Positions 9,449 through 43,405 of a stretch of 50,141 nucleotides of DNA are shown in pieces. The DNA comes from an uncultured Prevotellaceae bacterium. GTDB taxonomy: Bacteria > Bacteroidota > Bacteroidia > Bacteroidales > Muribaculaceae. Below the pieces are notes generated by a model. The model did not search any database. It had not been told where the DNA came from and saw only the letters and a list, made by a program, of their open reading frames with translations. The first letter of the stretch is position 1. Every line of letters starts with the position of its first letter. Where the stretch lies: the NCBI GenBank assembly GCA_900318065.1, contig ONIY01000011.1:1-50141 (forward strand), given 5' to 3'. The translations under genes and the position numbers were made by a program.

Positions 9449-10561
9449 ATGACAAAAGAAGAACTCAGAATAGTATTTTTTGGAACTCCTGACTTTGCTG
9501 TCGAGAGCCTGCGGCGGCTGGTAGAGGGTGGATATGACATTGTGGGCGTGGTCACTATGCCCGACAAGATTGCCGGTCGCGGACATCGCCTCATTCAGTC
9601 GGCAGTAAAGCAGTATGCCGTGGAGCAGGGGCTTCACGTTATGCAGCCCGAGCGCCTCAAGGACGAGGCGTTTGTCGCCGAGTTGCGAAGCCTCAATGCG
9701 CAGTTGCACATCGTCATAGCCTTCCGCATGCTGCCCGAGGTGGTGTGGGCAATGCCACCGCTGGGCACCTTCAACCTCCACGCGTCGCTGCTGCCCAAGT
9801 ATCGTGGCGCGGCACCCATCAACTGGGCGGTGATGAATGGCGACAAGGTGACGGGAGTCACCACGTTCTTCCTCAAGCACGAGATTGACACGGGCGACGT
9901 GATTCAGCAGCAGTCCATCGAGATAGGCCGCACCGACAATGTTGAGGCAATTCATGACCGTCTCATGATGCTGGGTGCCGGCATGGTGATCGACACCGTC
10001 GATGCCATTATCGCTGGCACCGTCAAGCCCATTCCGCAAGAGCAGATGCTCACGGCAGGCGAGCAACCCACTCCTGCGCCCAAGATTTTCACCGAGACTT
10101 GCCGCATCGACTGGAACCGTCCCGCCGAGCAGCTTTATAACCACATTCGCGGTCTCTCGCCCTATCCCGCAGCATGGAGCGAGATTGCCGATGCTCAGGG
10201 AAATATCCACCATGTAAAAATCTTCGCCACCAGCGAGCCCATAGCATATGATGAGATGGTGGCGGAGGCAAACTCCCCCTCTAAGATAGAGGGGGCTGGG
10301 GGGAGTATGATCTCCAACAAAGCTGGGGGGAGTATGATCTCCCATGAGGCAGGTGAGAGTATGATTTCCCATGAGGCTGGTGAGAGTGTGAAGTGCACCA
10401 AACCAGCACCAGGCACCATCACCGCCAGTGGCAACCGCATGGTAGTGGCATGTGGCGATGGTGCTCTCGAAATCCTGTCGCTCCAGCTCTCGGGCAAGCG
10501 CCGCATGCCGGCAGCCGACTTCATGCGCGGCTTCAACCTCGAGGGATGCTGCTTCAAGTAA
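9449..10561 (+). CDS. fmt: Methionyl-tRNA formyltransferase with an in-frame repeat insertion
   Basis: Transfers a formyl group from 10-formyl-THF to initiator Met-tRNA. The N-terminal Rossmann domain starts LRIVFFGTPDFAV, and the catalytic block is FNLHASLLPKYRGAAPINWA near residue 107 (Asn-His and the SLLPKYRG loop), followed by HEIDTGDVI. The C-terminal OB-type domain is interrupted. After residue 271 (VAEA) there is a stretch of about 45 residues, NSPSKIEGA followed by GGSMISNKA, GGSMISHEA, GESMISHEA and GESV, before the domain resumes near KPAPGTITASGNRMVVACG. This makes the protein 370 aa against the usual 310-325. The reading frame is intact through the insertion, so the enzyme is probably still made. 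The stop is followed by a long non-coding region. Confidence 0.95.
   Translation: MTKEELRIVFFGTPDFAVESLRRLVEGGYDIVGVVTMPDKIAGRGHRLIQSAVKQYAVEQGLHVMQPERLKDEAFVAELRSLNAQLHIVIAFRMLPEVVWAMPPLGTFNLHASLLPKYRGAAPINWAVMNGDKVTGVTTFFLKHEIDTGDVIQQQSIEIGRTDNVEAIHDRLMMLGAGMVIDTVDAIIAGTVKPIPQEQMLTAGEQPTPAPKIFTETCRIDWNRPAEQLYNHIRGLSPYPAAWSEIADAQGNIHHVKIFATSEPIAYDEMVAEANSPSKIEGAGGSMISNKAGGSMISHEAGESMISHEAGESVKCTKPAPGTITASGNRMVVACGDGALEILSLQLSGKRRMPAADFMRGFNLEGCCFK
10275..10393. repeat. Hairpin plus 27-nt tandem repeats inserted in fmt
   Basis: A perfect 9-bp stem (CCCCCTCTA at 10275-10283, TAGAGGGGG at 10287-10295) is followed by three full 27-nt units (10298-10324, 10325-10351, 10352-10378) and a partial fourth. 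Each unit encodes nine residues, so frame is kept. The same stem with a different loop stands in non-coding DNA at 41727-41748, which marks this as a dispersed element that landed inside a gene. Confidence 0.93.
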
Positions 10562-11178
10562 GGCAAAATTGCCTGACTGGCAATCTGATAAAAGGATTAT
10601 TGTTAGAACTTGTTCTTTCTCTTTTTATTTTGTGAAGACATGATTCTAACCATTGGAGTCCGATAAAAGTCCGTTGGGGCTTGGATTTTTGAATGTGAAG
10701 CATACGATGGCTGGCCGTAGGCCAGGACGTCCCCAGCGGGGACGAAGTGAGTTAACCTCACGGCGCGTACCCCGGAGGGGTGCGTGGCGTGAGGGGTGAT
10801 CATATCCATCCACTTAACGGGCCCCGCAGGGGGCCAACACTTGCTGGCATTGATCCACATAAGAGTAATGGGCTTACATGATGGATGTTGTTGACCCTCT
10901 ACGAGGCTCGGAATAAGGGAAAACTCAGGACATCCCACGCCACGCACCCCTTTGGGGTACGCGCCGTGGGGTTACATCATTTCGCCCCCTTCGGGGACGC
11001 TTTGGCCTACGGCCAACTCGCAAAAGCCATGGTTGTGCCGTTTTCATTTTTTGTCGGGCACTAATAATAAACTATCAACCATAAGAATAAAGTTGCGCAG
11101 CGACTTTGAAAACTTGAATTTTGTTGGAAAAAATCAAAAAAAATTGGTTTTTATCGCTATTGTTGAAAAATTTATTGC
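10562..11178. other. 617-bp non-coding, structure-rich region between fmt and sppA
   Basis: No convincing gene. Short open frames here overlap the palindromes and read like translated repeats. The main content is the large inverted repeat described separately (about 10712-11015), followed by an AT-rich stretch leading to the sppA promoter. Confidence 0.8.
10712..11015. repeat. Large inverted repeat with nested hairpins (about 82-bp arms, 140-bp interior)
   Basis: The left arm (about 10712-10793) and the reverse complement of the right arm (about 10932-11015) run in parallel: TGGCCGTAGGCCA, then GTCCCCAGCGGGGAC in the left arm versus GTCCCCGAAGGGGGC in the right, then GTTAACCTCACGGCGCGTAC versus TGTAACCCCACGGCGCGTAC, then GGGGTGCGTGGCGTG in both. 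Each arm is itself a chain of small hairpins (GGCCGTAGGCC; TACCCCGGAGGGGTGCG). The interior has a further GC hairpin (GGGCCCCGCAGGGGGCC, about 10819). No transposase or other ORF is inside. It could be a miniature inverted-repeat element or a structured RNA or terminator cluster. Confidence 0.85.
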
Positions 11179-15392: not shown

Positions 15393-15797
15393 ATGAAGAA
15401 ATTTATTTTAATGTCGATGATGGCAGTATTATGCATCATGACAATGAGCGCACAGAAGACTGTTGTGTCACAAAAGAGCCAGAAAGTATATGACACAGTA
15501 GATCAAATGCCCGAGTTTGCCGGTGGCATGTCGGCATTGATTGATTACCTGAGTACAAACATTAAATACCCCCAAGATGCGATAAAGCAGAATCTGTCGG
15601 GAAGAGTCATGGTGATGTTTGTGGTTGAGACCGATGGCAGCATTTCAAACGTTAAAGTGGCTAAGAACGTGTTCCCTTCACTAGATGCCGAGGCAGTTAG
15701 GGTTGTAAAGGCAATGCCCAAGTGGATTCCTGGAAGACATAAAGGCAAGATTGTTAGAGTAAACTATACATTGCCTATAGTGTTCTCAATTAAGTAA
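15393..15797 (+). CDS. Secreted TonB C-terminal-domain protein
   Basis: From the ATG at 15393 the product is 134 aa. An upstream in-frame start at 15309 overlaps the promoter and is rejected. The N-terminus is a signal peptide (MKKFILMSMMAVLCIMTMSA, then Q). The mature part is a single TonB C-terminal domain: MPEFAGGMSALIDYLSTNIK, YPQDAIKQNLSGRVMV, ETDGSISNV and AMPKWIPGRHKGK are the typical blocks. There is no TM anchor or Pro-rich spacer, so it is not a classical TonB energy transducer but one of the short periplasmic forms common in Bacteroidota. Its TAA overlaps the ATG of the TPR-HTH lipoprotein by one base (TAATG), implying coupled translation and a shared function. Confidence 0.85.
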   Translation: MKKFILMSMMAVLCIMTMSAQKTVVSQKSQKVYDTVDQMPEFAGGMSALIDYLSTNIKYPQDAIKQNLSGRVMVMFVVETDGSISNVKVAKNVFPSLDAEAVRVVKAMPKWIPGRHKGKIVRVNYTLPIVFSIK

Positions 15798-17362
15798 TGA
15801 AGCACATTCCGTATTTCATACTTCTTCTCATAATTGTGGGCTGCTCCCATGAGCAGTCCCACAATGAACTATTAAAAAGGGCCGAAAATATTGTGTCCAC
15901 TCAGCCCGACTCGGTAGTGGGAATGCTGGCACCACACTGGAATGACACTACAATGACCGAGGCCGACCGAGCTCTCTACGGACTTGTTTACACCGAGGCT
16001 ATTCATCGCAGCGGACTCCATATGGAATCAGACTCGCTGATAAAGGCTAGCAGGGTGTATTACGAGAATCATGGTGACGATGAGCGCCTGGCAAGAGCTC
16101 TGCTTCACAATGGCATTATCCTGTACAAGCAACAGCAGACCCGCGAAGCCATTCTCATGATGAAAAGGGCTGAACACCTGGCTGTCGACTTGCATGTGCC
16201 CGATTTTGAGTGGTATCTCTGCTCGGTGCTTGGTGATGTGAATGACAATGTGGGCGACTACACAATGACCTTGCTATACTATAATCAAGCTCTCAAGGCG
16301 GCGCAACAAGTCGATAACAAGCAGTGGATAGTACAGACCCTCAACAACATTGCCATGACTCACGACATGCTGGGCGAGCGTGACAGCCTCAAGTATTATG
16401 TGGAGCAAGCTAAATCACTTGCCGACAGCACTGATGGCGATGTGAGAGCCACTTATCTCGTCAATCTTGCAAGTCTCATGATGGGAGCCGGCAATAATGC
16501 CGAAGCCAAACGCTACTTGACCGAATCGATGCAGATTTCACCAACCGACCGTGGTGCTAAACTGCTTGCCGACATCTATGTGCAAGAGGGCGACACGGCA
16601 TCGGCTGCACAGCAATGGTATAGTCTTACAACTTCTCTCTCTCCCGATGTCGCCATCCATTCCTTTCAGCAGTTGATAATCTATCTTTACAGGCGAGGCG
16701 AGATGAAGGGAGTGACCGACTTAAGCTTACGACTCAACGAGTTGTATCATAACCTCTATGAACACGATGATACAGCTGGTGTCATTGATCTGCAGACGCA
16801 ATATGACGAGCAAATCAAGGAACGCAAGCATTACAGGAATTTGATTGCATTGCTTGCGTCCATCATTTTCCTAATGATTGCGTTGGCGGTAATAATATGG
16901 TATAGTCGCCATCGCATCGACAAACTCAATTCTCGTTTTGCCGAAACCCAGCAACAATTTAACTTGACTCGCTCTGAACTTACCCACATGCGGCGGCAGA
17001 AGGAGCGTGAACAGCGGGAGAACTCCCTCCAAATGAAGGAAACTGTGTCGCGATTGCATGCATCGGCTAGCACGGGTAAGTCCGCCGGCGATGAGGATGC
17101 TAACGCGCTGGCTCAACTATCTTATGCATTGAACCCCAAGTTGCAAACACTGTTGTCGACTCTTAACTCAAAAGAGCAGATGGTGTGTCTGCTCACAATT
17201 CACAATTTCTTGCCCACCGAGATTGCAACTCTTACCATATCGACGCCTCAGGCCATAACCAACACTCGTGTGCGTTTGCTTAAAAAACTCTTTGGTGAGA
17301 CTGGTGGCGCCAAGGATTTTGATAATGCAATCAAGCAAAGAATAAATTTTACAAAGAAATGA
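15797..17362 (+). CDS. TPR lipoprotein with TM, coiled coil and C-terminal HTH (one-component-like regulator)
   Basis: A 521-aa protein with a lipoprotein-type signal (MKHIPYFILLLIIVGC, lipobox Cys at residue 16). TPR-like helical repeats cover about 20-330. A transmembrane helix follows (LIALLASIIFLMIALAVIIW, about 348-367), then a charged coiled-coil segment (FAETQQQFNLTRSE, MRRQKEREQREN) and a C-terminal helix-turn-helix-like region (LNSKEQMVCLLTIHNFLPTE, IATLTISTPQAITNTRVRLL). The topology places the TPRs in the periplasm and the HTH in the cytoplasm, as in Bacteroidota TPR-TM-LuxR-like regulators. The DNA target is unknown. Coupling to the periplasmic TonB-domain protein suggests that protein may feed a signal to the sensor (inference). 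A combined lipobox and internal TM is unusual but seen in this group. Confidence 0.8.
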   Translation: MKHIPYFILLLIIVGCSHEQSHNELLKRAENIVSTQPDSVVGMLAPHWNDTTMTEADRALYGLVYTEAIHRSGLHMESDSLIKASRVYYENHGDDERLARALLHNGIILYKQQQTREAILMMKRAEHLAVDLHVPDFEWYLCSVLGDVNDNVGDYTMTLLYYNQALKAAQQVDNKQWIVQTLNNIAMTHDMLGERDSLKYYVEQAKSLADSTDGDVRATYLVNLASLMMGAGNNAEAKRYLTESMQISPTDRGAKLLADIYVQEGDTASAAQQWYSLTTSLSPDVAIHSFQQLIIYLYRRGEMKGVTDLSLRLNELYHNLYEHDDTAGVIDLQTQYDEQIKERKHYRNLIALLASIIFLMIALAVIIWYSRHRIDKLNSRFAETQQQFNLTRSELTHMRRQKEREQRENSLQMKETVSRLHASASTGKSAGDEDANALAQLSYALNPKLQTLLSTLNSKEQMVCLLTIHNFLPTEIATLTISTPQAITNTRVRLLKKLFGETGGAKDFDNAIKQRINFTKK

Positions 17363-19793: not shown

Positions 19794-19818
19794 CCCAGAA
19801 CCTGCTTAACACTTAAAA

Positions 19819-19905
19819 CGTTCCGCGTTCCACGTTCCACGTTCCACGTTCCACGTTCCACTTATCACTTAACACTTAACACTTAACACTTAACACTTAT
19901 TACTT
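19819..19905. repeat. Heptamer repeats GTTCCAC and CACTTAA
   Basis: At least five GTTCCAC-type units (19819-19861) are followed by about six CACTTAA-type units. Both have a 7-bp period. They fill the space between the HU operon and the 3' end of glnS. The same two motifs recur, in either orientation, at about 26640, 34915-35030, 43230 and 49611-49904. Confidence 0.9.
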
Positions 19906-19910
19906 ACCCC

Positions 19911-21626
19911 TTACTTCTTCTGTGCCTTAGCCCAGCTGTCTTTCAGGGTGATAGTGCGGTTGAATACCAGGTGGTCGGCAGTGCTGTCGGGGTCTACGCA
20001 GAAGTAGCCTATGCGCTGGAACTGGAACTTGTCCTCGGGCTTGGCAATCTGTGCCAGGTAAGGCTCAATCTTGGCATGTGGAAGCACCTTGAGCGAGTCG
20101 GGGTTGAGCAGTTCGCGGAAGTCCTTCTCGGCCTCGGCCGATGGGTTCTCTACGGCGAAGAGACGGTCATAGAGTCTCACCTCGGCATCCTTGCAATGAC
20201 GTGCCGAAACCCAGTGCAGCGTGCCTTTCACCTTGCGCATGCTGCCAGGAGTACCGCTCAGAGTGTCGGGGTCGTAGGTGCAGTGAATCTCGGTGATGTT
20301 GCCGTCGGCATCTTTCACCACCTCGTTACACATTATTATATATCCACCTTTCAGGCGCACTTCCTTGCCAGGAGTCATGCGGAAGAACTTCTTGGGAGGA
20401 TTCTCCATAAAGTCGTCGCGCTCAATGTAGATCTCGCGGCAGAAGGGCATCTCGTGAGTGCCGGCATTCTCCTGCTCGGGATTGTTGTCCATGGCGAGCA
20501 TCTCCACCTTGTCCTCGGGATAGTTGGTAATGACAACCTTCACGGGGTTGAGCACGGCGCACACGCGGTTGGCATTCTTGTTAAGGTCCTCACGAATGTT
20601 GTGCTCGAGCAGGTCGATATCGTTAAGTGCCTCATATTTTGTGTAGCCAATGTCGTCGAGGAAGTTCTTGATCGACTGTGGGGTGTAGCCACGACGGCGC
20701 AAGCCGCAAATGGTGGGCATGCGGGGGTCGTCCCAGCCTGCTACGAGGCCTTCTTTCACCAGCTGGAGGAGCTTGCGCTTGCTCATTACGGTGTAGGTGA
20801 GGTTCAGGCGGTTGAACTCAATCTGGCGAGGGCAGTACTGGTCTACCGTGTCGCCTGCCAGCAGGTGGGCAAAGTAGTCGTAGAGTGGACGGTGAGGCAC
20901 AAACTCCAGGGTGCAAATCGAGTGAGTCACTCCCTCGAAGTAGTCGCTCTGGCCATGCGCGAAGTCATACATGGGATATACTTTCCACTTGGTGCCGGTG
21001 CGCCAGTGTGGAGTCTTGATGATGCGGTACATGATGGGGTCGCGAAAGTGCATGTTGCTCGACGCCATGTCAATCTTGGCGCGCAGCACGCGAGCACCCT
21101 CGTCAAACTCGCCGGCGTTCATGCGCTCAAAGAGGTCGAGGTTCTCCTCTACCGAGCGGTTGCGGTAGGGGCTCTCGGTACCTGCCTGGGTGGGAGTGCC
21201 CTTTTGCTGAGCTATCTGCTCGCTGGTTTGGTCATCGACGTAGGCGAGTCCTTTCTTGATGAGTTCAATAGCAAAGTCATAGAGTTTCTCGAAATAGTCG
21301 CTTGCATAGTACAGACGGTCGCCCCAGTCATAGCCCAGCCAGTGGATGTCGCGCTTGATCGACTCCACATACTCGGTGTCTTCCTTCTGGGGGTTGGTGT
21401 CGTCGAAGCGCAGGTTGCAGGTGCCACCAAACATCTCGGCCACTCCAAAGTCCATGCAGATGGCCTTGGCATGTCCTATGTGGAGATAGCCATTGGGCTC
21501 TGGTGGAAATCGGGTGTTAAGGCGTCCGCCGTTTTTACCTGCTGCCAAGTCGTCGGCAACTATTTGCTGTACAAAGTTGAGGACCTTCTTCTCCTCAACG
21601 GGTCTTATTTCGTTGTTCTCTGCCAT
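19911..21626 (-). CDS. glnS: Glutamine--tRNA ligase
   Basis: Class I aminoacyl-tRNA synthetase charging tRNA-Gln. The 571-aa protein has the HIGH signature in [20 protein letters not shown] (about 43-62), [10 protein letters not shown], the KMSKS-equivalent VMSKRKLL, and the C-terminal anticodon-binding beta-barrels ([20 protein letters not shown]). The length fits bacterial GlnRS (about 550-580). It shares an intergenic region with the divergent argS, and each gene has its own promoter. Its presence means Gln-tRNA can be made directly here. Confidence 0.97.
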
Positions 21627-21827: not shown

Positions 21828-23609
21828 ATGTCGATTGAAAGTATACTATCACAAGCAACCGCACAGGCGGTAAACGATTTATATGGCACCGTGGTTGACC
21901 CACAAAGCATTGTGCCACAGGCTACTCGCAAGGAGTTTGAGGGAAACCTCACCATCGTGGTGTTCCCCTTCTTGAGGGCTTCGCACAAGGCGCCCGATGC
22001 CACTGCGCAAGAGATAGGCGACTATCTTGCTGCCCATTGCGATGCCGTTGAGAAGTTCAACGTTATCAAGGGCTTCCTAAACATCACTGTCAAGCCTTCG
22101 TTCTGGGCACAGCTGCTCGACGGCATCTGCCGCGACGAGAACTACGGCTTCAAGCAGGTGACTCCCGAAAGCCAGCTCGTGATGATAGAGTACAGCTCGC
22201 CCAACACCAACAAGCCTCTCCACCTGGGCCATGTGCGCAATAACCTGCTGGGATTCAGCCTGGCACAGATTATGAAAGCCTGTGGCAACAAGGTGGTGAA
22301 GACCAATATCGTCAACGACCGTGGCATCCACATCTGCAAGTCGATGCTCGCGTGGCTCAAGTGGGGCAATGGCGCCACTCCCGAGAGCACTGGCAAGAAG
22401 GGCGACCACCTGATTGGCGACTTCTATGTGCTCTTCGACAAGCACTACAAGGCCGAGATTAAGGAGATTGCTGCCGCTCAGGGCATTAGCGAAGAGGAGG
22501 CCGAGAAGCAGTCGACTCTCATGCAAGAGGCTCGCGAGATGCTCAAGAAGTGGGAGGACAACGACCCCGAGGTGCGCGCGCTGTGGGAGAAGATGAACAG
22601 CTGGGTTTATGCTGGTTTCGACGAGACCTACAAGCGCATGGGCGTGGACTTCGACAAGATTTACTACGAGAGCCAGACCTATCTCGAAGGAAAAGAAAAG
22701 GTGGAGGAAGGCCTCGCCAAGGGCGTGTTCTACCGCAAGGACGACAACAGCGTGTGGGCCGACCTCACTCCCGATGGCCTGGACCACAAGCTGCTGCTGC
22801 GTAGCGACGGCACCAGCGTCTACATGACTCAAGACATTGGCACCGCTAAGCTGCGCTACCAAGACTATCCCATCGACAAGATGATATATGTGGTGGGCAA
22901 TGAGCAGAACTATCACTTCCAGGTGCTCTCGCTCTTGCTCGACAAGCTGGGATTCAAGTGGGGCAAGGACCTGATCCACTTCTCCTATGGCATGGTAGAG
23001 CTGCCTCACGGCAAGATGAAGTCGCGCGAGGGAACGGTGGTCGATGCCGACGACCTGATGGACAAGATGGTCGACGACGCCATGGCAATGACAAGCGACC
23101 GCCTCGAGGGAATGACCATCGACGAGAAGCGTGAGGTGGCACGCATCATTGGCATGGGTGCGCTCAAGTACTTCATCCTCAAGGTTGACCCACGCAAGAA
23201 CATGCTCTTCAATCCTGCCGAGAGTATCGACTTCAACGGCAACACCGGGCCTTTCATCCAGTACACCTATGCCCGCATCCGCTCGCTCCAGCGCAAGGCA
23301 GGCGACAACATGCCGGCTCTGGACGTGAATAGCGTTACTCCTAATGACAAGGAAATTGCTATTATTCAGCGCATTGCCGACTTTGCCAGCGTGGTAGAGG
23401 AAGCAGGACGTACCTATAGCCCTGCCTTGATTGCCAACTACACCTATGAGCTGGCTAAGGAATTCAACCAGTTCTACCACGACTACAGTATCCTCAAGGA
23501 GGAAGACGAGAACCTCAAGGTGTTCCGCCTCGAGCTCTCGCGCACTGTGGCTGGCGTCATCAAGCGCGCCTTCTCACTGCTGGGCATCGAAGTGCCTGAA
23601 CGCATGTAG
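21828..23609 (+). CDS. argS: Arginine--tRNA ligase
   Basis: Class I synthetase charging tRNA-Arg. The 593-aa protein starts with the ArgRS-specific N-terminal tRNA-binding (Add-1) domain. The HIGH-type signature is EYSSPNTNKPLHLGHVRNNL (about 121-140), followed by GNKVVKTNIVNDRGIHICKS. The KMSKS-like element is GKMKSREGTVVD (about 396-407). The C-terminal DALR anticodon domain ends ELSRTVAGVIKRAFSLLGIE. The length is normal. Confidence 0.97.
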   Translation: MSIESILSQATAQAVNDLYGTVVDPQSIVPQATRKEFEGNLTIVVFPFLRASHKAPDATAQEIGDYLAAHCDAVEKFNVIKGFLNITVKPSFWAQLLDGICRDENYGFKQVTPESQLVMIEYSSPNTNKPLHLGHVRNNLLGFSLAQIMKACGNKVVKTNIVNDRGIHICKSMLAWLKWGNGATPESTGKKGDHLIGDFYVLFDKHYKAEIKEIAAAQGISEEEAEKQSTLMQEAREMLKKWEDNDPEVRALWEKMNSWVYAGFDETYKRMGVDFDKIYYESQTYLEGKEKVEEGLAKGVFYRKDDNSVWADLTPDGLDHKLLLRSDGTSVYMTQDIGTAKLRYQDYPIDKMIYVVGNEQNYHFQVLSLLLDKLGFKWGKDLIHFSYGMVELPHGKMKSREGTVVDADDLMDKMVDDAMAMTSDRLEGMTIDEKREVARIIGMGALKYFILKVDPRKNMLFNPAESIDFNGNTGPFIQYTYARIRSLQRKAGDNMPALDVNSVTPNDKEIAIIQRIADFASVVEEAGRTYSPALIANYTYELAKEFNQFYHDYSILKEEDENLKVFRLELSRTVAGVIKRAFSLLGIEVPERM

Positions 23610-23611
23610 TA

Positions 23612-23706
23612 ATCAGTTATCAGTATTCAGTAATCAGTAGTCAGTAGTCAGTAATCAGTAGTCAGTAATCAGTTTTCAGTTATCAGTTATCAGTAGTCAG
23701 TTTTCA
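23612..23706. repeat. Heptamer repeat CAGTAAT/CAGTAGT/CAGTTAT
   Basis: About thirteen near-perfect 7-bp units of CAG-T-N-N-T type follow argS directly. The same family recurs at about 25919-25942 and at 43345-43405. Confidence 0.9.
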
Positions 23707-26118: not shown

Positions 26119-26595
26119 ATGCGCATTGGATATGGATTTGACGTTCATCGCCTGGTAGAAGGCAGGGAGTTATGGATTGGCGGGGTGAAGATTGACCACG
26201 ACAAGGGGTTGCTGGGGCACAGCGATGCCGACGTGGCCATTCATGCGCTGTGCGATGCCCTGCTGGGTGCCGCAGCACTGCGTGACATTGGTTACCATTT
26301 CCCCGACAGCGACCCGCAGTACAAGGGCATTGACAGCCGCAGGCTGCTGCGCGAGGTCATCAGGTTGATTAACGAGAAAGGATATGTACTGGGCAACTGC
26401 GACATCACCATCTGTGCCGAGGCACCCAAGATGAACCCACACATCCCTGCCATGCAGGCCCAACTTGCCGAGTGCATGAACTGCGACCCATCACAGGTCT
26501 CAGTCAAGGCGACAACCACCGAGCGCCTGGGCTACACCGGCCGAGGCGAAGGTATCGCCGCCCACGCCGTAGCGCTTATAATGCTTAATGCATAA
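26119..26595 (+). CDS. ispF: 2-C-methyl-D-erythritol 2,4-cyclodiphosphate synthase
   Basis: Fifth enzyme of the MEP isoprenoid pathway; cyclises CDP-ME 2-phosphate and releases CMP. The 158-aa protein has the zinc-site and signature blocks [20 protein letters not shown] (about 3-22), [20 protein letters not shown] (about 34-53), [11 protein letters not shown], and the C-terminal [20 protein letters not shown]. The length is standard. dxr of the same pathway is at 40474. The gene ends directly in repeat DNA. Confidence 0.97.
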
Positions 26596-26762
26596 TGCTC
26601 AATGCATAATTCACAATTCACAATGCACAATCTTGCTCGTTCCACCTTCCACGTTTCACGCGCGAAGCGCCGCTCCCCGCTCCCCGCGCCGCAGGCGCAC
26701 ACTTAACCCTTAAAACTTAACCCTTAAAACTTAACCCTTAAAACTTAACCCTTAACACTTAT
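26585..26762. repeat. Heptamer repeats between ispF and glpB
   Basis: A run of 7-bp units (GCATAAT, GCTCAAT, TCACAAT, GCACAAT) is followed by degenerate GTTCCAC units, GC-rich CGCGCGAAGCGCC and CGCGCCGCAGGCGC elements, and a 14-bp unit CTTAACCCTTAAAA (two times seven) repeated about four times up to the glpB stop codon. Confidence 0.92.
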
Positions 26763-34913: not shown

Positions 34914-35030
34914 TAAGTGTTAAGTGTTAAGTTGCGCCTGCGGCGCGGGGAACGTGGAACGAAGTAAGTGTTAAGTGTTGAGTGTTAAGTGTTAAGTGTT
35001 GAGTGTTGAGTGTTAAGTTTTAAGGACTAG
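34914..35030. repeat. Heptamer repeats (TTAAGTG, GTGGAAC) with a GC-rich element
   Basis: TTAAGTG/TTGAGTG units in 7-bp register flank GCGCCTGCGGCGCGGGGAAC and a GTGGAAC unit. They fill the gap between the transporter and marC. Confidence 0.9.
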
Positions 35031-41634: not shown

Positions 41635-41748
41635 TGCACAATTCATAATGCACAATCTATAAACAACGATTCAAGTTTCTTAAGTAATAATGAGATCCCC
41701 AACAGCTAACAATCAGGCGACAAACTCCCCCTCTATTCTTAGAGGGGG
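41623..41748. repeat. Heptamer repeats plus CCCCCTCTA hairpin between dxr and rseP
   Basis: TGCATAA/TGCACAA/TTCATAA units overlap the 3' end of dxr. Further on, CCCCCTCTA (41727-41735) and TAGAGGGGG (41740-41748) form a perfect 9-bp stem with loop TTCT, the same stem as in the fmt insertion at 10275-10295. Confidence 0.92.
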
Positions 41749-41804
41749 AACTGACTTCCGAAACTTGAGAGAACATCTAGAAACACACGAAGAATAACTA
41801 AAAC

Positions 41805-43181: not shown

Positions 43182-43405
43182 GTGTTGCGCCTGCGGCGCG
43201 GGGATCGAGGATCGGCGCTTCGCGCGTGGAACGTGGAACGTGGAACGGCGCTTCGCTCAGCTAGCAGCGCTAGGATTTCTAGAACTTCTAGATTTTCTAG
43301 ACCTCTAGAAAAAAACTGCTCAACTACTCAACTACTCAACTGCTCTACTGATTACTGACTACTGATAACTGAAAACTGACTACTGACTACTGAAAACTGA
43401 CTACT
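43182..43405. repeat. Mixed short repeats between rseP and the methyltransferase gene
   Basis: In order: GCGCCTGCGGCGC and GGCGCTTCGC elements around GTGGAAC heptamers (about 43185-43259), TCTAGA units at irregular 7-9-bp spacing (43272-43311), CAACTACT octamers (about 43320-43345) and a CTGATAACTGAAA-type heptamer run (about 43345-43405). It is a concentration of nearly all repeat families seen elsewhere in the window. Confidence 0.9.

Follow-up and report, generated by a model that had tools for sequence, protein, structure and literature searches.

The gene for methionyl-tRNA formyltransferase (fmt) in the Bacteroidales genome examined here carries, in frame, a 40-nt DNA element that is dispersed over the genome, has entered other protein genes in the same manner, occupies sites that are empty in related genomes, is conserved at the level of its DNA, and flanks genes of the DUF559 (PF04480) family in inverted orientation. 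The fmt insert is probably a solo end of an insertion sequence-like element of the form hairpin–DUF559–hairpin, the ends of which spread as REP/MITE-like repeats.

The window, that is, the whole stretch of DNA that was analysed, comprises 50,141 nucleotides, and its relevant features are collected in the table. In a profile search the product of fmt reaches 266 bits with TIGR00460, the Fmt equivalog, for which the cut-off is 201.5, placing it within that family; Formyl_trans_N and Formyl_trans_C are both matched, the C-domain match (residues 212-363) spanning the insert, and no further Fmt match at E<=1e-30 is present in the source assembly (93.85% complete). The preliminary description had reported a hairpin and 27-nt repeats in frame inside this gene, which our results confirm with an intact reading frame, and the contrary arrangement that it had named, a pseudogene with a second intact fmt elsewhere, is not what we find. 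The alignment to related Fmt proteins that it had proposed reveals an excess of approximately 49 residues, located between positions 265 and 321, a stretch over which the 24 relatives vary in both sequence and length. On solved Fmt chains this stretch falls between two matched parts (e.g. residues 243 and 256 of 1fmt), and alignment of the sequence to these chains is consistent with the claim that the insert lies in a surface loop. Comparison with the sister species indicates purifying selection on fmt before the insert (dN 0.059, dS 1.19), while the portion after it evolves faster (dN 0.194). Just downstream of fmt stands an 80-nt inverted repeat (10712-10791 / 10936-11015) that is 84% complementary and rich in GC palindromes.

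Features of the window that bear on the fmt insert, with positions counted from its first nucleotide.
Feature	Position	Strand	Basis
fmt, methionyl-tRNA formyltransferase, 370 aa, intact host gene	9449..10561	+	profile matches
40-nt dispersed element AACTCCCCCTCTAAGATAGAGGGGGCTGGGGGGAGTATGA, in-frame reading NSPSKIEGAGGSM	10271..10310	+	boundaries from 52 copies in the source genome
Hairpin core CCCCCTCTA-AGA-TAGAGGGGG	10275..10295	+	hairpin search; single-strand DNA fold
Four 27-nt units, tandem duplications of element tail + 12 nt	10295..10402	+	repeat search; absent in the sister species
~99-bp element with TCAAGTTTC / GAAACTTGA ends, holding the hairpin at 41727-41748, no AGTATGA tail	41670..41768	+	sequence reading

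The dispersed element has the form ARCT-CCCCCTCTAAGATAGAGGGGG-nn-GGGGGGAGTATGA, and the hairpin core within fmt folds as single-stranded DNA at -9 kcal/mol (z -2.5). Two copies of the hairpin, at 10275-10295 and 41727-41748, are found in the window and none in 100 shuffles of it, while the source genome (2,985,043 bases in 97 contigs) contains 94 exact hairpins and 50 copies with the tail, the reversed-pattern control giving 0; among 66 distinct hairpins inspected, 58 have a tail. With the pattern slightly relaxed, 52 copies are conserved from the A[AG]CT that precedes the hairpin to the AGTATGA of the tail; outside these limits the sequence is near random, and the two nucleotides that separate hairpin from G-run are variable. 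Copies also occur as inverted pairs of approximately 117 bp (e.g. 13543+ / 13624- on contig C25), and the coexistence of such gene-less pairs with inverted ends around one gene is the arrangement that defines an insertion sequence and its MITEs. That the repeat normally lies outside genes, as first supposed, is supported by its occurrence mostly outside long reading frames. The second hairpin copy of the preliminary description is likewise present, although it sits in a different and larger element with TCAAGTTTC/GAAACTTGA ends and without the tail; more untailed copies with these ends occur elsewhere in the genome. The description of hairpin and 27-nt unit as separate repeats did not hold, as the two belong to one element: nnGGGGGGAGTATGA is at once the first part of the unit and the tail of the element.

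The tandem repeat itself (10294-10391, period 27, 3.6 copies, 84% matches) overlaps the tail of the 40-nt element, its first unit starting at 10295, and the G-run is kept in units 1 and 2 and lost in units 3 and 4. The 27-nt repeats are tandem duplications beginning in the tail of the element itself. Tandem amplification is seen elsewhere too, with a 63-nt unit present four times in a hemerythrin-domain gene of the same genome. An RNA-family reading was rejected, as Rfam gave only a Clostridiales-1 match at 24.2 bits (cut-off 48) on G-rich repeats; ten DUF559 loci searched against Rfam gave only two sub-threshold plant miRNA matches, at one locus. The window also holds 7-nt tandem-repeat arrays of several families with inverted copies across it (19818-19913, 23608-23701, 26578-26761, 34965-35024, 43225-43405), and begins (1-195) with a tandem array of the 10-nt unit TCCTATCCAT in 19.5 copies.

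The history of the fmt insertion can be followed in related genomes. A search of 61 genomes gave an Fmt match in 54, and among the 30 loci inspected the insert is present in two, those of the source genome and of its sister species (91% identity), and absent from 28. The sister species carries one element at the same fmt site and no tandem unit, and the site is empty in three genomes (G010, G011 and G030) whose Fmt is 86-92% identical. As both sister genomes are occupied and only one has tandem units, these sequences are most simply read as an insertion that preceded the split of the two species, with the 27-nt amplification following later in the source lineage. The order of events first proposed, in which a repeat entered fmt without breaking the frame and later multiplied in steps divisible by three, is thus upheld.

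The search of related genomes for coding contexts that had been suggested shows that many genes have received such in-frame insertions. The 159 distinct copies at loci of the genus yielded 29 open reading frames, each 160 residues or longer, that run through the element in its sense frame, and 20 non-Fmt frames were scanned for families (sense-frame ones only), three of which gave no family match. The element stands in the open sense frame of 16 named gene families, where it is read SPSK[IL]EGxxGSM: an Fe-S protein, MiaB, PdxB, MurF, a glycosyltransferase, AroC, QueA, AroA, a hemerythrin-domain protein, RibD, a ParC/GyrA-like subunit, RecX, an AAA protein, DUF4421, Lnb and Fmt. In seven of these (Fmt, QueA, MiaB, MurF, AroC, PdxB and AroA) the family profile is matched on both sides of the element, and all seven insertions are in the sense frame, for which the chance is (1/3)^7, or ~5e-4. 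One sense and two antisense frames of the element are open. When at least 50 open codons were required on each side, without the selection for 160 residues, 33 sense cases were counted vs 9 antisense. Eighteen long antisense-frame open reading frames were also listed; three of the 10 scanned could be named (RecG-type, MBOAT and a carboxypeptidase-regulatory domain), and in each of these the element precedes the domain, lying no further than residue 17 of the open frame. At the queA site two of 17 genomes are occupied and 15 are empty; the insert there measures 72 nt and not 40, consisting of the element and ~30 nt more, and comparison of occupied and empty sequences at this one site revealed no clear target-site duplication; both observations count against the insertion sequence-like reading.

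Orthologous insertions allow the element to be compared as DNA, and three were used with 12 element codons each: fmt (source genome G000/sister species G001), queA (G001/G081) and a parC-like gene (G111/G011). An aroA pair (G001/G092) was left out of the count, its elements not aligning to each other. Synonymous differences within the element amount to 0.5 of 9.0 sites in fmt, 0 of 8.7 in queA and 0 of 8.7 in the parC-like gene, a total of ~0.5 observed vs ~12.6 expected, where the rest of each gene has a pS of 0.59, 0.49 and 0.35, respectively. Within the element, the free dinucleotide is the sole difference between the two queA copies. For the 12 flanking codons to each side of the element, pS is 0.42 in queA and 0.03 in the parC-like gene, and this low value among neighbouring codons makes the latter case the weaker one. 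The preliminary description would have been contradicted by an insert kept as protein with random synonymous changes; the opposite is seen, the DNA being kept with almost no synonymous change. Homogenisation through the element's own activity would explain this conservation, as would constraint on the hairpin.

The association with DUF559 begins in the source genome, where the single PF04480 match (C53:15758-16081; 90.7 bits vs a cut-off of 20.6) has element copies at 15552 and 15618 on the plus strand and at 16111 and 16309 on the minus strand, with their tails directed inward. Four of the 50 tailed copies thus lie within ~260 bp of this gene, two per side and inverted, against an expectation of 0.016 in 900 bp (P(>=2) 1.2e-4). 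Among 101 genomes of the genus there are 30 DUF559 matches in 27 genomes, of which 26 could be clearly located and four partial ones were dropped; at 22 of the 26 an inverted repeat in the flanks exceeds a score of 26, which was the highest among 30 control fmt loci (kinship uncorrected), and the other four score 19-25. For a wider sample, species genomes were scanned with a 19-sequence alignment and the best 80 loci kept, 72 of them with enough flank. A flank score of at least 30 was reached at 45 of these 72 loci vs 3 of the 142 windows taken there as controls (Fisher 1e-23, kinship uncorrected); against the association, the remaining 27 score below 30. As named in their records, the taxa include Bacteroidota, Acidobacteria, Nitrospirae, Chloroflexi, Patescibacteria and a cyanobacterium, and a few may belong to the genus itself. 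The common form at these flanks is CCCCTCCTT..AAGGAGGGG, a spacer, and GGGG[T/A]GG, and each of ten genomes selected because their flanking repeats were strong contains 4-75 dispersed hairpins, the reversed control giving 0 or 1. The D, E, D and G columns of the D...ExDG residues are invariant in alignments of 19 and of 34 sequences, in keeping with membership of the DUF559 family, for which one solved relative (3hrl) was found. A further candidate locus (L229) was discarded, the match being part of a larger helicase-like reading frame. A phage homing endonuclease was likewise rejected, as tblastn with the DUF559 protein of the source genome matched 25 plasmid records, every one below 60% identity, and none from phages. 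We found no description of DUF559 with flanking hairpins in the open-licence literature searched.

Two tail types occur in the genus, AGTATGA in 16 of 101 genomes and GCGTTGA in another 16, with no overlap (P only 0.049, and without phylogeny). Ends of the GCGTTGA type, or near to it, adjoin the DUF559 genes of six genomes (G070, G021, G120, G032, G071 and G024), and the four DUF559 proteins of this type that were placed in a tree form one supported clade (97/97). In some copies of this type, that of locus L330 among them, the free spacer holds a second small stem (GCCC...GGGC). The flanks of 13 DUF559 loci were compared, and as three pairs have common flanks the 13 represent 10 neighbourhoods. 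The whole DUF559 gene is also found in frame within host reading frames, namely those of a CapF-like epimerase, a DegT aminotransferase and aroA, the host domain matches of the first two being split in two stretches; furthermore, DUF559 is joined to ribD and to DUF2520 proteins. Loci L206, L211, L215, L218 and L212 hold a complete DUF559 domain inside, or fused to, CapF-like, DegT, AroA, RibD and DUF2520 proteins. Against mobilisation by DUF559, 18 of the 32 genomes with AGTATGA- or GCGTTGA-type elements have no DUF559 match (many of the assemblies are incomplete bins), 13 of the 69 genomes with neither tail type have DUF559 (Fisher p 0.009 in comparison with the 32, kinship uncorrected), and one genome (G068) has a single AGTATGA-type copy although the repeats beside its DUF559 gene belong to other types. 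This mismatch between repeats and DUF559 could stem from loss, from incomplete bins or from a different mobiliser.

Three other explanations have to be weighed. It is hardly credible that Fmt simply gained an adaptive stretch of protein in the ordinary way and retains it for the peptide: the presence of the insert in two species with the frame maintained would suit such an account, but the same 40-nt DNA stands in dozens of unrelated places, the insert is missing at 28 of the 30 Fmt loci inspected, and the near absence of synonymous change within the element, set against a pS of 0.59 for the remainder of fmt and 0.49 for that of queA, already contradicts it. We consider it distinctly improbable that the repeat spreads by gene conversion or template switching without a dedicated enzyme, the hairpin being retained for a signalling role in RNA or DNA, for instance as a terminator or a binding site. 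DNA-level conservation inside genes would also be expected from conversion or from hairpin function; however, the sharp boundaries of the element amid unrelated flanks, its inverted pairing round DUF559, and the presence of DUF559 in 10 neighbourhoods among 13 loci all argue against this account.

A transposase of the Y1/RAYT type (IS200/IS605-like), encoded elsewhere and mobilising the hairpins, would leave DUF559 as mere cargo between two ends. The source genome does have six Y1_Tnp genes, REP repeats are known to accompany RAYTs (excerpt of PMC3733652), and many repeat-bearing genomes lack a DUF559 match, but we nevertheless regard this explanation as unlikely, given that the hairpin lies within ~1.5 kb (less at contig ends) of none of the six Y1 loci, and that the flanking of DUF559 recurs in many phyla with other hairpin sequences. 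Y1 transposases were accordingly rejected as neighbours of the repeat.

Under the reading that we favour, an insertion sequence-like element built round DUF559, the full element would consist of two inverted 40-nt ends with their tails directed inward to one small gene for a DUF559 (Vsr-like PD-(D/E)XK) endonuclease, each end comprising a 9-bp hairpin, a free 2-nt spacer and GGGGGGAGTATGA; the end-to-end pairs of ~117 bp and the solo ends would be its non-autonomous derivatives. We infer that the DUF559 protein catalyses the movement of the repeats, and likewise the manner in which it does so: the protein would recognise the single-stranded or extruded hairpin with its tail and cut at the hairpin-tail or at the target, and repair would then copy the element end into the new site. 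Within essential genes, only copies that leave the frame open would survive. The sense frame of the element encodes a hydrophilic peptide, SPSKIEGxGGSM, and such hydrophilic read-through would allow the insertion in the variable Fmt loop to be tolerated; the tail half of the fmt element later underwent tandem duplication.

Several known systems invite comparison. Rickettsia palindromic elements, with 44 in-frame integrations in one species, resemble the fmt element in being palindromic repeats found in frame in unrelated protein genes, but they are ~150 bp in length rather than 40 nt (excerpt of PMC10969869), and unlike them the fmt element goes with a DUF559 gene, uses one sense frame in the genes tested and has a Bacteroidales host. 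The REP/RAYT system (REPtron) and REPINs share with it a dispersed 20-40-nt hairpin with a short tag, found also in inverted pairs, and a repeat that flanks one enzyme gene present once or a few times (excerpt of PMC3733652). The enzyme there is a Y1 HUH transposase, whereas here the flanked enzyme is a DUF559 Vsr-like nuclease; a Y1 (HUH) gene flanked by the repeat was found at 0 of 6 Y1_Tnp loci, and the tag at the foot of the hairpin is AGTATGA or GCGTTGA and neither GTAG nor CGTC. MITEs of insertion sequences likewise have two inverted, gene-less ends derived from an element with a gene, but here no known transposase family lies between the ends, solo ends are common, and no target-site duplication was found at the queA site, the only one compared. 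A Caulobacter DUF559 protein has been studied as VsrA and discussed as a mismatch-repair endonuclease; the excerpt of that account (PMC12907096) makes no mention of flanking repeats. By analogy, the best reading is of a system that may work as RAYT–REP does, but with another class of enzyme.

Whether the DUF559 proteins of many phyla are in general the enzymes of undescribed, very small transposons, with inverted hairpin-tag ends, a Vsr-fold nuclease and no HUH, DDE, serine or tyrosine recombinase, the solo ends of which give rise to REP-like repeats across genomes and recurrently insert in frame into essential genes, appears to us an evenly balanced question. On this view even an entire nuclease gene can lie in frame within the gene of a host protein, in the manner of an intein without splicing. 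If this reading is right, it would provide a function for a widespread family of unknown function, and the binding and cutting of the cognate hairpin by DUF559 would offer a direct test. It would also give an origin for the G/C-rich hairpin repeats that are common in Bacteroidota and in other phyla, and the housekeeping enzymes with in-frame insertions would form a natural series in which selfish DNA may be seen turning into protein sequence.
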